Assembly (NCBI GenBank): GCA_030065055.1
Contig: JASJDS010000002.1
Location: 1-64,000, forward strand
Length of the DNA: 64,000 nucleotides
Origin: Calothrix sp. MO_192.B10
GTDB lineage: Bacteria; Cyanobacteriota; Cyanobacteriia; Cyanobacteriales; Nostocaceae
Direction: 5' to 3'
Positions 22,040-33,332 of the stretch are shown here, piece after piece; position 1 is the first letter of the stretch, and each line of letters starts with the position of its first letter. The notes beneath the pieces are model-generated. The model was given only the letters and a program-made list of their open reading frames with translations. It was not told the origin of the DNA and did not search any database. Made by a program: the position numbers and the translations under genes.

Positions 22040-22074
22040 GAATAATAAGATAATAGGGAATAGTGGAGGGAGCG

Positions 22075-22641
22075 ATGTCTGTGCAATTACTCCGGCACAA
22101 ATTCACAGTTGAGCATTACCACAAGATGATTGAGTCGGGAATTCTCAACAAGTATGACAGGGTGGAACTGATACGGGGAGAGATAGTTGAGATGGCAGCT
22201 ATTGGGACAAAGCACGCAGGTTGTGTAAATAGATTAAATAATATGTTAGTCCCCCTATTAGGGGATAGAGTAATTCTCAGCATTCAAAATCCTGTAGTAT
22301 TGAGCGATAACTCCGAACCACAACCTGACATTGCTTTATTACAACCCCGTGAAGATTTTTACGCATTCGCCCATCCACAGCCACAAGATATTTTCCTCGT
22401 CATAGAAGTGGCTGATAGTACGATGAAATATGACCGAGAAGTGAAGGTTCCTCTTTATGCTGAAGAAGGTGTGCTGGAAGTTTGGTTAATAGATATCAAT
22501 GAGGAATGGGTGGAAGTTTATCGAGAACCTGCAAGGGATGGGTATAAAAATGTAGGAAAATTCAGCAGGGGTGAAAGTTTATCTATTCAAGCTTTTGCTG
22601 ATGTAAGTATTAGTGTGGATGACGTATTAGGTAATGCCTAA
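22075..22641 (+). CDS. Uma2 family (DUF820) endonuclease-like protein, first
   Basis: This 188-residue protein is of the Uma2/DUF820 group, a PD-(D/E)XK nuclease-like fold that is greatly expanded in cyanobacteria. It opens with the typical FTVEHYHKMIESGILNKYDR and VELIRGEIVEM. The candidate active site is EPQPDIALLQP (Asp) with IFLVIEVADST (Glu-x-Ala). LYAEEGVLEVWLIDINEEWVEVY is family-typical. GGAGGGA just before the ATG at 22075 supports that start over the upstream GTG. The biological role of the family is not established. A second, distant member follows at 22820. Confidence 0.88.
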   Translation: MSVQLLRHKFTVEHYHKMIESGILNKYDRVELIRGEIVEMAAIGTKHAGCVNRLNNMLVPLLGDRVILSIQNPVVLSDNSEPQPDIALLQPREDFYAFAHPQPQDIFLVIEVADSTMKYDREVKVPLYAEEGVLEVWLIDINEEWVEVYREPARDGYKNVGKFSRGESLSIQAFADVSISVDDVLGNA

Positions 22642-22645
22642 GGAG

Positions 22646-22729
22646 ATTTCCAGAATTGAAATTACCACGGGAGGTGACAAGTCATCACCAATGGATATGA
22701 TTAGAATGTTTGTCCTATGGCAGATCCAT
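22646..22729. repeat. Dispersed 83-bp repeat, copy 2
   Basis: It starts five bases after the Uma2 stop and is closely similar to 1227-1309 after proB. Shared blocks include GACAAGTCATCACCAA and GAATGTTTGTCCTAT. The stretch GTAGGGGCGCAATGCTTGCG follows it as a separate small palindrome. Confidence 0.75.
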
Positions 22730-22819
22730 TGTAGGGGCGCAATGCTTGCGCCCTTGTGATTGGTAAAATTATTTTCAGAAATCACCTAAATTATCAATTG
22801 CTACCCAGAGGAAAGAATT

Positions 22820-23359
22820 ATGGTGGTTGCTCCTGTTAACTGGGATAATTATTCCCTAGAAGATTTTATGACGAATCCCCCTGAGAAAACCGAATGGGTG
22901 GATGGTCAATTAATAGAAAAAGCAGGTGCAACACTAAGACATGGAAAAATTCAATTGAGACTTGGTTGCTATTGGGATAATTACAAGGAATCTAGCGGAC
23001 AAGGTGGAAAAGTTTATATTAATGTACCTTGTCGCACCAATAAACAAGGACGTTCTCCTGATGTTGCTTATTTAACCCCTGAGCTTGTTACACAGTTTGG
23101 TAATGTTCCCACTTTACCCCGGAGTTTTCCTTTGAGTGCGGAGATTGTTTCACCTACGGATTTAGCGGAAAATGTGTTGTTAAAGGCACAGGAATATTTA
23201 GAGTCTGGCAGCGAAGAGGTGTGGTTGGTGTTTCCTGACAGTCGCTGGGTGATGGTAATTACTGAAAATCAAGGTTTAATGTTTACATCTGGTCAGGTGG
23301 TAAGTACGCAAAAAGTTTTGACAGGTTTTAGTGTCGCAGTGGATGAATTATTGGCTTAA
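22820..23359 (+). CDS. Uma2 family (DUF820) endonuclease-like protein, second
   Basis: This 179-residue Uma2/DUF820 protein is only distantly related to its neighbour. Hallmarks are the start NYSLEDFMTNPPEKTEWVDG, the Asp region QGRSPDVAYLTPE, the Glu region LSAEIVSPTDL, and EYLESGSEEVWLVFPDSRWV. AGAGGAAAG precedes the ATG. No operon partner is evident, although a small antitoxin-like gene follows after 53 bases. Confidence 0.88.
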   Translation: MVVAPVNWDNYSLEDFMTNPPEKTEWVDGQLIEKAGATLRHGKIQLRLGCYWDNYKESSGQGGKVYINVPCRTNKQGRSPDVAYLTPELVTQFGNVPTLPRSFPLSAEIVSPTDLAENVLLKAQEYLESGSEEVWLVFPDSRWVMVITENQGLMFTSGQVVSTQKVLTGFSVAVDELLA

Positions 23360-23825: not shown

Positions 23826-26800
23826 TTAAAGTATAAAACAATACTCGATATTCCTCCCAAACGCGCAGACAACCCGAAAACCGCCACTGTAGTTGATGTA
23901 GTCGCGCCCCGCCCAATAGGTGAAGTCGCGGTACGCCGAGCGGCAGAGTACAGGAAAGGTGAGCCAGGAACCGCCCCGCAGCACAGCATAATCCTTTTTT
24001 TGAGAAAGATTATTATTATTATCAAACCAAGCACTGCCATCAGTGGGCGCCCCCTCATAGTTATCATGCCAATCATCAAGGCACCATTCCCAAACGTTCC
24101 CGTGCATATCGTATAAACCAAAGGCATTTGCTACCTGAAACATCCCTACTGGAGTTGTTTCACCGCGACTTACGCCTCTTTCTCCAGAACCATAGATGTA
24201 GCTGCCATTATAATTCGCCAAATCGGTTGAAATTGTCTCCCCAAATTGAAATGGGGTTGTTGTTCCAGCTCGACAGGCATATTCCCACTCTGCTTCACTG
24301 GGTAATCGAAATTCCCGCCCTGTATGCTGGGAAACACGGGCACAAAACTCCACAGCATCATACCAATTTACTTGCTCTACAGGACGATTAGCACCTTGGA
24401 AATGAGAAGGATTAGATTTAAGTTCACGTTCTACTTGAGGTAGTGCTGCAACGGCTTGCCACTGTGCCTGAGTTATTGGATACTTACCCATCAGGAATGG
24501 TGCTACTGTCACTTGGTGCTGTGGGCGTTCCCTATCGCTCGATTCTTCCTCTTTAGGGGGTGAACCCATCAAAAATGTGCCGCCTGGAATTTCTACCATT
24601 TCCAAGATGACACCATTGCCCAAATCTATCTCTTCTGTGGGTGGGTGTTCCACTAAGCGAATTGACTCTATACCGTCCTTTATTTCTGCAATCAGCATGG
24701 GAATTTCTTCTCCAAGCTGTTTTAGTGTTTTGGCAGTTTCTCTACGAGTTTTTAGCACTTCGCTGTCATTGTTTAAAAGCCTCCGCAGGCGAGGAATGGC
24801 TGGTTTAGCATCTTTGCCCATCTTAACCAAATCTTCAGCCGCACGGGCGCGATATTCTGCTTCTGGTGCGGAAAGTTCCTGAATCAGCATCCTGACTCGC
24901 CGTTGGCGTTGAAATTGTCGTACTACTTCGGGATCTAATCCTGCCTTTTTGCCCAGTTCCTCCACCACAAACTCAGGAACGCCAACCCTTTTCCCTTTCA
25001 CCTCACAACAGTCCCGCAGTGCTAGTAAAAAGCCCTTAATTTCTTCCGGAAATCCTGGTTTATGCTCGGCTTGAGCTAAAATCTCCCTCCAAGCATCCTC
25101 ATCATTGCCATACTGCTGAACCAAGTGCAATCCTGCCAAATACTCGGCTAAAGGATCTAAAGTAAAGCGCAGGGTTTGCAAGTCAGGTTTCTTCTTCCGC
25201 ACCAGGTAGAGTCGCGATTCCAGATATTGAAGGTGCTGTTTAGCTTTCTCTGCTGCTGTTTCTGCGTCCAATTCCAAGGCTTCCAAGTTAATTAATACCT
25301 GCTTACAATCGGCAGATTCGGGTTTAAAGGTAGGCTCAATGCATTTCCAAGCAACAAGTTGAGCAATTTCATGTACCTTCTGATGGCTTAATTCGCCTGA
25401 CGTTGATTTATTCAGTTCGTTTAAGTATTGCAGCATCAAATCGGGCACATTATCAGGTAACTCGTCCGTAGATGTACCTTCTTTGGCAGCAATCATCTGT
25501 TCGGCGTAAAGTTTCACCAGTAGGATGGTAAGTCCTTGTTTATTCGATGTTTTGGTTTCCACTTGTCTAACACTTGCCATCCCTTCCAAGCGACGGTAAG
25601 CTTCAGAATAATCCAAGCCATCAAATAGTTCTGCTTTGCCCTTTTTTTCTAAATAGCGGTTAAGGAAAGAAGCCAAACTACCCACAGAAATCCGAAACGG
25701 TTCTATAAAGGTGGGGGTGATTTCTGAACCCAAAATATTCTTGAGGCGAGAAGTAACAATTAAAGCATTAGCGGGAAACTCCTGATTATCTGGTTGAATT
25801 TTCTTGCGGGTTTCTTCTCCCATTTCTGAAAGATGATCGACAATCAGTAAAATCCGCTGCTGTCTGAGTAATTGCTTTAACAGTTCCTCTGGAATTACTT
25901 TACCTGACTGGGTTAACTCCTTCAACAACCCACCAATGGTTTCCAGTAATGAGCCATCAAACTCATCCTCAATCAAAATAGGTAATATTGGATGCTGACA
26001 AATGCGATCGCTTTTTCCTAATTTCATTGCCCATTTAGCAATTTGACAAGCCAGACTGGTTTTCCCTGAACCACCTTCCCCCCAAATTACTACCCGTACC
26101 TGAGATTGAGAAAAAGTATCTTTCAGTACCTTGGCATTAAAATCAGGGATATCAACTTTATGCTCATTCAATAGAATGGGTTCAGCAACATAAATTTCGT
26201 GCTTCTTAACGGTATCCCTACCCTCAAATTGTTCCTTGGCTTTGTGAATCCGCTCCCTTACCCAAGCATCTAACACTCTGGGATGATACTTGAGGAACAG
26301 TAAATACCGCAGAGACACAGGCAATTTCACAACCGGAATCGTAAACGTTGCCGGCTTCACCCATTCATCCAGCTTTAACAGCCAAATAGGGCGGACAATA
26401 AATATACCAAGATAACCAACCAAATACCCCACAGCTAACCAAAACCAAGGATTATCCTTAACCCATTTAACTACCTGGTAAAAGGTTTGCTCTTTTAGCT
26501 GTTCTAACCTAGTTTCCAGCCTACTACTAACCTGACTTAAGTCATCAATGTATTTTTTCTTATTCTTTAACCCCTGCTTATTTTGTTCTACAGCAGTAAC
26601 AGCTTTATCCAAACTCTGCTTTAGTGCTTCTAGCTTTTGAACCGCCTCCAAGTCCCATTCTGTGAAATTATCCGCCTCCTTTTGCACTCCCTCAGCAATC
26701 TGCACTAAAGCCGAAGTAGCATTACTACTAAGGGTTTCATCACTGCGCTTCAAGACTCTTACCAGTGCAGGCACAGCACTTTGGGCATCTGCACCAATTT

Positions 26801-27071
26801 TTCCCAAAGTAGAGGCTGCATAGGCACGAATTGCCGGATTATCATTTAGGGCAAGTGCTAGAGGTGCGATCGCATTCTCCCCACACTTTACCAATTCATC
26901 ACTGGCAGCTTTACGACTTTTATCATCCTTTAACTTTTGAATCTGCTCCTTCACATCTGCTGGCGTACAATTCTGCGCCCAAGTATTACTACTGACAAAT
27001 AAAGGTAGCAATAAACTCAAGCAAGCAGCATTAAACCAGAAAGTAATCTTGTATGAGGAGCTTTGACTCAT
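23826..27071 (-). CDS. Membrane NACHT NTPase with HEAT repeats and FGE-like domain
   Basis: This 1081-residue STAND protein has, in order: a signal-peptide-like start (about 1-32); HEAT-like repeats (about 45-125, NPAIRAYAASTLGKIG); a coiled coil (about 140-195); a transmembrane helix (about 208-227, WFWLAVGYLVGYLGIFIV); NACHT with Walker A GEGGSGKT near 331 and Walker B ILLIVDH near 407; a second HEAT block (about 735-800, EYRARAAEDLVKMGKDA); and a formylglycine-generating-enzyme/SUMF1-like domain from about 815 (EIPGGTFLMGS, LPSEAEWEYACRAG, GNVWEWCLDDW, RGGSW). The likely topology puts the first HEAT block outside and the NTPase inside. STAND proteins are sensors in signalling or defence; the role here is inferred only. 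It stands alone. Confidence 0.9.
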   Translation of the reverse strand: MSQSSSYKITFWFNAACLSLLLPLFVSSNTWAQNCTPADVKEQIQKLKDDKSRKAASDELVKCGENAIAPLALALNDNPAIRAYAASTLGKIGADAQSAVPALVRVLKRSDETLSSNATSALVQIAEGVQKEADNFTEWDLEAVQKLEALKQSLDKAVTAVEQNKQGLKNKKKYIDDLSQVSSRLETRLEQLKEQTFYQVVKWVKDNPWFWLAVGYLVGYLGIFIVRPIWLLKLDEWVKPATFTIPVVKLPVSLRYLLFLKYHPRVLDAWVRERIHKAKEQFEGRDTVKKHEIYVAEPILLNEHKVDIPDFNAKVLKDTFSQSQVRVVIWGEGGSGKTSLACQIAKWAMKLGKSDRICQHPILPILIEDEFDGSLLETIGGLLKELTQSGKVIPEELLKQLLRQQRILLIVDHLSEMGEETRKKIQPDNQEFPANALIVTSRLKNILGSEITPTFIEPFRISVGSLASFLNRYLEKKGKAELFDGLDYSEAYRRLEGMASVRQVETKTSNKQGLTILLVKLYAEQMIAAKEGTSTDELPDNVPDLMLQYLNELNKSTSGELSHQKVHEIAQLVAWKCIEPTFKPESADCKQVLINLEALELDAETAAEKAKQHLQYLESRLYLVRKKKPDLQTLRFTLDPLAEYLAGLHLVQQYGNDEDAWREILAQAEHKPGFPEEIKGFLLALRDCCEVKGKRVGVPEFVVEELGKKAGLDPEVVRQFQRQRRVRMLIQELSAPEAEYRARAAEDLVKMGKDAKPAIPRLRRLLNNDSEVLKTRRETAKTLKQLGEEIPMLIAEIKDGIESIRLVEHPPTEEIDLGNGVILEMVEIPGGTFLMGSPPKEEESSDRERPQHQVTVAPFLMGKYPITQAQWQAVAALPQVERELKSNPSHFQGANRPVEQVNWYDAVEFCARVSQHTGREFRLPSEAEWEYACRAGTTTPFQFGETISTDLANYNGSYIYGSGERGVSRGETTPVGMFQVANAFGLYDMHGNVWEWCLDDWHDNYEGAPTDGSAWFDNNNNLSQKKDYAVLRGGSWLTFPVLCRSAYRDFTYWAGRDYINYSGGFRVVCAFGRNIEYCFIL

Positions 27072-32564: not shown

Positions 32565-33332
32565 ATGAATGACATATTAAATGAGATTATTGGGACAGGC
32601 CAACCAGACGCATTAAACGGCACACCATTAGATGATTTGATTAATGGTCGTGGTGGCAATGACAACATCAACGGCAATGGTGGCAATGATAGAATTCGGG
32701 GTGGTCGTGGTAACGATAATATCAATGGTGGTTCGGGTAATGATAGAATTCGGGGTGGAGGTGGTAACGACATCATCAACGGCAATGGTGGTAACGATCG
32801 GATCTTTGGTGATGGTGGTGACGACTTGATCAATGGTGGTTCAAGCAATGATAGAATTTGGGGTGGTCGTGGTAATGATACTATCAACGGCAATGGTGGC
32901 AATGATCGGATCTTTGGTGGAGCTGGTAATGACCTGATCAATGCTGCTTCGGGCAATGATAGAATTTGGGGTGGTCGTGGTAACGATATCATCAACGGTA
33001 ATGGTGGCAATGATCGGATTTTTGGTGGAGCTGGTAATGACACCATTAATACTGGTTCTGGTAATGATTTCATTAATTCCGGCTCTGGTTTCGATATTAT
33101 TCGACTGAATGGGGGTGAGGATACCGTCGTTCTCAGGGTGGGAGAAGGATTCGATATAATTGAAAACTTCCAGCTGGGGAATACTCAGTTTCAAGCAGGT
33201 AATACTAACAACCTGGAGTTTGAGGCTTCGGGGAATGGGGTCGATATCTTCCGCAACGGTGATAAAGTAGCCTTTGTGAACAATACGCAAGTTAGCACAT
33301 TTGAAGATAATTTAGGCTCCATATTCCTATAG
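32565..33332 (+). CDS. RTX-type calcium-binding repeat protein
   Basis: This 255-residue protein consists largely of about 17 nonapeptide RTX units (GGxGNDxIx) from about residue 27 to 180. They alternate in an 18-residue super-unit: one unit reads GNGGNDRIF, the next GGRGNDxIN. These repeats bind calcium in a parallel beta-roll. The last 75 residues ([14 protein letters not shown] onward) resemble the C-terminal part of secreted cyanobacterial RTX proteins, where a type I secretion signal is expected. No transporter gene is near. The stop codon TAG is formed across the junction with the duplicated gcvP 3' end: T is 33330 and AG is 33331-33332. Confidence 0.88.

Follow-up and report, generated by a model that had tools for sequence, protein, structure and literature searches.

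A Calothrix membrane NACHT protein with a DGR variable region at the end of its FGE-like C-terminal domain

A central STAND NTPase (NACHT, MNS or nSTAND1) combined with an FGS (FGE) domain is characteristic of a group of conflict proteins (eLife 2021, PMC8195603) that are often associated with a DGR, either close by or at another site of the genome, and, when DGR-diversified, have been proposed to sense invaders within the cell (PMC8195603, PMC10907252). DGR-diversified targets in which a NACHT NTPase is joined to a domain of the C-type-lectin (CLec) fold have been published for a multicellular bacterium; DGR targets in general have been proposed to gain their CLec ends by recombination; and in characterized STAND proteins, the sensor is usually C-terminal and the effector N-terminal (PMC10907252). 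The same combination of a central NACHT NTPase with an FGE-like domain is found in the gene described here, which lies in the window, a stretch of 64,000 nucleotides of Calothrix sp. MO_192.B10 (contig JASJDS010000002.1, positions 1 to 64,000; genome of 7.76 Mb, denoted G000, assembly 96% complete; its relatives are denoted G001, G002, G041, G171 and G173). We propose, with a probability of about 0.6, that the product of this gene is a membrane-anchored STAND (NACHT) switch in which the C-terminal FGE-like domain, a remote DGR target, senses an intracellular ligand, most likely that of an invader, with the output conveyed via the membrane helix and the HEAT module.

The gene (window positions 23826 to 27071, minus strand, as are all features below unless stated) is an intact open reading frame encoding 1081 amino acids. 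The protein starts with a signal-peptide-like N-terminus (residues 1-33, ending in SSNTWAQ; 26973-27071) that has a hydrophobic peak at residues 9-27 and conserved W31, A32 and Q33. The open frame reaches just 5 codons upstream of the ATG, so the signal-like segment lies at the real start, and the concern of an earlier note on this DNA that a correct start might remove the segment falls away. There follow N-terminal HEAT repeats (residues 71-127; 26691-26861; HEAT_2, PF13646, 6.9e-12), long paired helices (residues 141-195; 26487-26651), a transmembrane helix (about residues 208-228; 26388-26450) that is kept across homologues, the NACHT NTPase (residues 327-433; 25773-26093; PF05729, 28.4 bits against a cut-off of 26.7), the NACHT C-terminal helical domain NCH4 (residues 671-714; 24930-25061; PF22731, 2.1e-20), a helical, HEAT-like linker (residues 720-786; 24714-24914) and the FGE-like domain of the C-type-lectin fold (residues 816-1081; 23829-24626; FGE-sulfatase, PF03781, at residues 824-1068, 3.7e-56). 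The occurrence of a signal-like start, HEAT repeats, one membrane helix, NACHT, further HEAT and an FGE-like domain in one protein, as the earlier note described it, is confirmed by the reading frame, the Pfam matches, hydropathy and a structural model. The C-terminal HEAT segment is helical in the model, but its sequence match is weak (HEAT_EZ, 0.012); where a coiled coil had been claimed, two model helices (141-162 and 171-194) do stand, the coiled coil itself being a prediction of that first reading only. The anatomy was incomplete in that NCH4 and, chiefly, the DGR variable region (VR) at the C-terminus (23853-23975, from GGSW to the 3' GGGAGG motif) were overlooked. Directly after the VR (23826-23852), the gene has no TAG stop and reads on to EYCFIL; a TAG stop just 3' of the VR is present in most of the paralogues with a VR of the same class and in the G002 sequence.

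The NACHT core has the hallmarks of its clade of STAND NTPases: the PF05729 match above the cut-off, a Walker A motif (GEGGSGKT) with G and K invariant among homologues, a Walker B motif (LLIVDHLSE) and the helical extension NCH4. The AlphaFold model (mean pLDDT 72.6) contains the helices of the HEAT part, the two long helices, a membrane helix at residues 208-226, the NTPase fold and more helices, with the C-terminal domain poorly modelled in the full-length protein and its variable part at low confidence; the best Foldseek matches of this model among solved structures are NLRC4 and NLRP3. Sequence and model together support the assignment of the protein as a predicted membrane STAND NTPase with an NLR-like fold.

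Hydropathy yields only two strong peaks compatible with membrane segments, the one near the N-terminus and another at residues 214-232. Among 22 aligned homologues, the signal-like start and likewise the membrane helix are retained, with W31, A32 and Q33 at least 90% conserved, and because of this conservation the HEAT repeats are probably located outside the cytoplasmic membrane, with the NACHT and FGE-like domains inside; the charge asymmetry flanking the membrane helix is modest. The earlier note proposed looking for the same domain order in homologues, and this order is indeed common to the relatives. The N-terminal part contains no known effector domain or EAD, and the signal, HEAT and membrane module is likelier to be an output or anchor than a sensor.

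The C-terminus of the protein, VLRGGSWLTFPVLCRSAYRDFTYWAGRDYINYSGGFRVVC, resembled a DGR variable region, and this resemblance prompted four tests. A search of the same genome with the VR DNA detects five paralogous VRs (75-83% identity). VRs of this class are carried in the genome by one NB-ARC/NACHT protein, by two NACHT-GUN4 proteins and by two kinases. For five of the genome's six VRs (the VR of contig C112 was left out of the count due to a pattern mismatch), differing sites at codon positions 1, 2 and 3 amount to 0.44, 0.40 and 0.11; upstream, in the FGE region, the values are 0.23, 0.17 and 0.44. The codon differences among the VRs include 155 amino-acid-changing and 9 silent ones. A template repeat (TR) was predicted from these VRs by filling the variable codons with AAC; in a search of 218 family genomes, its top two matches were real AAC-rich TRs (93% and 90% identity). 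The second of these matches the TR of Nostoc spongiaeforme FACHB-130, which lies directly 3' of a reverse transcriptase (RT) with the DGR motif IGNLTSQ. Between the window gene and its orthologue in G002, 25 of the 33 template-A sites of the VR differ versus 6 of 81 other sites (p=6e-13), with 45 differences in the 400 bases upstream of the VR. Two further orthologous VR pairs point in the same direction (19/31 TR-A versus 9/80 non-A sites, and 17/32 versus 14/76), as do the differences from the TR of locus L192 (19/31 TR-A sites versus 7/89 others). Thus, whether orthologues are compared with each other or VRs with the real TRs found in relatives, the differences are concentrated at TR-A sites. 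The conserved 3' end of the VR, GGTTTTCGGGTTGTCTGCGCGTTTGGGAGG (23853-23882), is IMH-like: VRs end in GGGAGG, and several TRs have GGGATG at that site, a contrast that resembles the IMH*/IMH difference of other DGRs. These comparisons show the last ~40 residues to be a DGR variable region, rewritten at template adenines since the split from a near relative.

It is extremely unlikely that the VR differences instead reflect ordinary gene conversion among FGE paralogues or relaxed selection, and not mutagenesis by reverse transcription, although the genome has at least 17 FGE paralogues and its own DGR is broken. The variation is concentrated at template adenines; relaxed selection would reach codon position 3, but the VRs vary at positions 1 and 2 and are nearly fixed at position 3; and, against gene conversion, the nearest VR paralogue in the same genome is just 83% identical.

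Two observations concern other VRs of these genomes. The kinase-FGE paralogue on C112 (L025) and its G002 counterpart (C242, L102) have identical C-terminal protein tails including the VR, so that, unlike in the other pairs, this VR has either not been rewritten since the species split or been exchanged recently; a pattern mismatch kept this pair, too, out of the automated TR-A count. Furthermore, contig C95 of G002 (L112, L221) carries a third class of TR next to a gene that has a VR; the stretch examined there contains no DGR RT, and the VRs on C143 and C39 of the window's own genome resemble this third class.

Complete cassettes of the same class, comprising variable protein, RT and TR, are present in N. 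spongiaeforme, N. desertorum, Calothrix sp. HK-06 and Calothrix sp. PCC 7103, and Dulcicalothrix desertica has a partly matching DGR cassette. The only DGR-type RT found in the window's own genome is a fragment (C46, positions 1978-2724, L230) that covers residues 1-187 of 352; a stop-containing insert of ~140 bp disrupts it, and it breaks off ahead of the catalytic YVDD motif. In a comparison of RTs, its closest counterparts are those of the Calothrix sp. HK-06 and D. desertica DGRs, and the insert has no second copy among the loci compared. There is no TR near this fragment and none was found in the 96% complete assembly, such that a cognate RT, TR and accessory protein were not found together in this genome. 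The RT encoded by G002 is intact and is accompanied by a TR of another class; a small ORF that adjoins this RT in the usual position of the accessory protein is a candidate for this role. A search of G001 for a DGR RT gave no match. Several candidates in the window's own genome were dismissed: a putative TR on C294 near an RT is a chance match of 19 nt next to the maturase of a group II intron; the other RVT_1 matches are of the group II intron type (one a fragment), one retron-like and one Ty3/gypsy-like, none with the DGR RT motif; and, of the PF05635 four-helix proteins considered as the DGR accessory, the one that shares its contig (C33) with an FGE paralogue is flanked by peptidase genes and has no RT near it. 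The Ty3/gypsy-like retrotransposon RT (C70, positions 878-1360, L050) suggests eukaryotic contamination of the assembly. The window VR thus appears to be an orphaned, or former, remote target: its mutator is defective or gone from this genome, unless an intact one lies in an assembly gap. A broken DGR does not support ongoing diversification in this strain, and the receptor appears now to be fixed in the sequenced strain unless a working DGR lies in such a gap or returns by transfer.

The C-terminal domain modelled alone (pTM 0.73) matches, in Foldseek searches, PvdO (1.3e-16), formylglycine-generating enzymes and the DGR variable protein TvpA of Treponema denticola (2y3c, 4.7e-11), so that by these matches and that to PF03781 it has the CLec fold expected of a DGR variable domain. 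It thus resembles the formylglycine-generating enzymes and PvdO in fold and overall sequence, but differs from them in lacking the catalytic CxxxxC pair and in having a hypervariable C-terminal segment. The two cysteines of CxxxxC bind copper in the solved formylglycine-generating enzymes. In an alignment of 45 homologues, this pair is absent from the window protein and its relatives; what is conserved, at 90% or more for each residue, is C1043 followed by R1048 at +5. The missing pair argues against catalysis by the FGE-like domain, and its identity as an enzyme was rejected on these grounds.

The earlier note had arranged the protein the other way round, with the periplasmic HEAT repeats sensing an outside signal, NACHT relaying it across the membrane and the FGE-type domain acting as the catalytic output. 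The domain order and the plausible topology suit this model, and HEAT repeats commonly bind proteins. An FGE-type output is nonetheless improbable: the domain has a hypermutated surface and no CxxxxC pair, its closest solved relatives include TvpA, and HEAT-NACHT homologues without FGE are common, which indicates that FGE is not the needed output. Given that the domain carries a DGR variable region and lacks the cysteine pair, it is most likely, judging from sequence, a hypervariable ligand-binding sensor at the usual C-terminal position of STAND proteins and not an output.

A strong relative of residues 1-815 is present in 64 of the 218 genomes of the same family. On the same signal, transmembrane and NACHT body, the relatives have C-termini with no addition (about 818 amino acids), with HEAT, or with HEAT and FGE, and this variation makes the C-terminus the exchangeable part. 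FGE-bearing orthologues are found in G001 and Calothrix rhizosoleniae SC01, whose genes are identical, G002, G171, G041, G173 and Mastigocoleus testarum, the last with an internal FGE deletion. The end that carries the VR thus seems to have been grafted onto a membrane NACHT protein of older origin, which agrees with the proposed gain of CLec ends by recombination (PMC10907252).

In G002, the closest relative, the orthologue (C279, L263) occupies the same place, with flanking DNA 95-97% identical. Within the gene, DNA identity is 91-96% over residues 1-79, mostly 43-62% over residues ~80-760 and 86-93% over residues ~781-1019; the corresponding protein identities of start, core and end are 91%, 44% and 89%. 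The G002 core is closest to that of G041 (65%), and the core type of the window is found in C. rhizosoleniae, M. testarum and G171 (69-86% identity to the window). The simplest reading is that the core was replaced by recombination inside the gene; the presence of the window-type core in G001, which is more distant, would place the replacement in the G002 lineage, and the full-length G041 gene with the G002 core type argues against a chimeric assembly. As a separate observation, the VR of the G002 orthologue ends early through a frame-changing length difference. Taken together, this receptor locus may be diversified at two levels, by DGR hypermutation of the sensor surface and by exchange of the membrane-NACHT core between close species, with the signal/HEAT start and the FGE end kept; the outcome would be NLR-like or allorecognition-like, a transmembrane STAND protein coupling a cytoplasmic hypervariable sensor to the envelope, a scheme that we offer tentatively.

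The neighbouring genes are ordinary: gcvTHP, an alpha/beta hydrolase, DUF4112 and two Uma2 genes. No defence-specific gene is among the neighbours in the window, and a defence-island context was accordingly rejected. PADLOC gives no good match (best 0.004). The claim that the gene stands alone and needs no partner holds for the gene neighbours but not for the VR, which depends on a DGR elsewhere. The two Uma2 genes are in tandem (22063-23359), and the G002 locus has room for one (about 250 bp versus about 920), so that one was inserted in the window or deleted in G002. Just past gcvP (32565-33332, plus strand) lies a gene for a protein of RTX-type calcium-binding nonapeptide repeats (PF00353, 7e-43).

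Under the proposed mechanism, the N-terminus would be exported, with the HEAT repeats outside the cytoplasmic membrane and NACHT and the variable domain inside. The variable C-type-lectin-like surface would bind a ligand inside the cell, with a phage or another invader as its most likely source; binding would trigger nucleotide exchange and oligomerization of NACHT; and the membrane helix with the HEAT module would then provide the output, for example, by acting on membrane or envelope integrity. A serious rival is that the same DGR-diversified receptor has self or neighbour ligands and a regulatory role, tuning cell-cell recognition, differentiation or stress signalling in filaments. The same VR class occurs on Ser/Thr kinases and GUN4-STAND proteins of this genome, the exchange of cores between close relatives at one locus resembles recognition loci, and Vallota-Eastman et al. 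have argued for regulatory tuning in cyanobacteria (PMC7517822). There is, on the other side, no pointer to a particular self ligand, and STAND-lectin proteins are generally tied to conflict (PMC8195603, PMC10907252); we consider self-recognition rather unlikely and sensing of an invader the preferred reading.

For the question of what cellular DGR targets do, this locus amounts to a clean natural experiment. Three related species have the gene; its sensor tip has been rewritten, one of the species has an exchanged core, and the DGR is intact in one, broken in another and not found in the third. The locus also corrects a misreading that is easily made, since the "FGE-sulfatase" tail of a cyanobacterial NACHT protein can be a hypervariable sensor and not an enzyme. 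Should the receptor prove to sense phage, the known parallel between bacterial NLRs and those of animals or plants would extend to a STAND protein that is anchored in the membrane and whose sensor is tuned by a retroelement.

Searches of the main texts of openly readable papers turned up neither the signal-HEAT-membrane-NACHT-FGE architecture nor an exchange of cores at a locus of this kind. These two features look new, whereas DGR-linked STAND-FGE proteins, NACHT-CLec targets and cyanobacterial remote variable proteins have already been published. The STAND-FGS proteins have N-terminal EADs or enzymatic effectors (PMC8195603), in place of which the window protein has the signal-like segment, HEAT repeats, helices and membrane helix. 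The antiphage STAND proteins bNACHT and Avs share with it an NTPase switch, a C-terminal recognition region and an NLR-like fold, but those characterized have repeat sensors and often nuclease effectors (summarized in PMC10907252), and the window protein is no good match to the PADLOC models. Cyanobacterial remote variable proteins are similar in that a C-terminal CLec VR is grafted onto dispersed signalling proteins, some with a transmembrane segment or signal peptide; the fusions described are to kinase, caspase, TIR, GAF, GUN4 and CHAT, and the words NACHT and HEAT are absent from the main text (PMC7517822). Like the window protein, the targets of DGR 3 and DGR 6 of Thiohalocapsa PB-PSB1 combine NACHT or nSTAND1 with a DGR-diversified C-terminal CLec/FGE domain, and degenerate DGR loci with a broken RT are reported there, as in the genome studied here (PNAS 2024, PMC10907252); the Thiohalocapsa targets adjoin their DGR loci, whereas the window gene is a lone remote target beside gcvTHP that has a HEAT membrane module.
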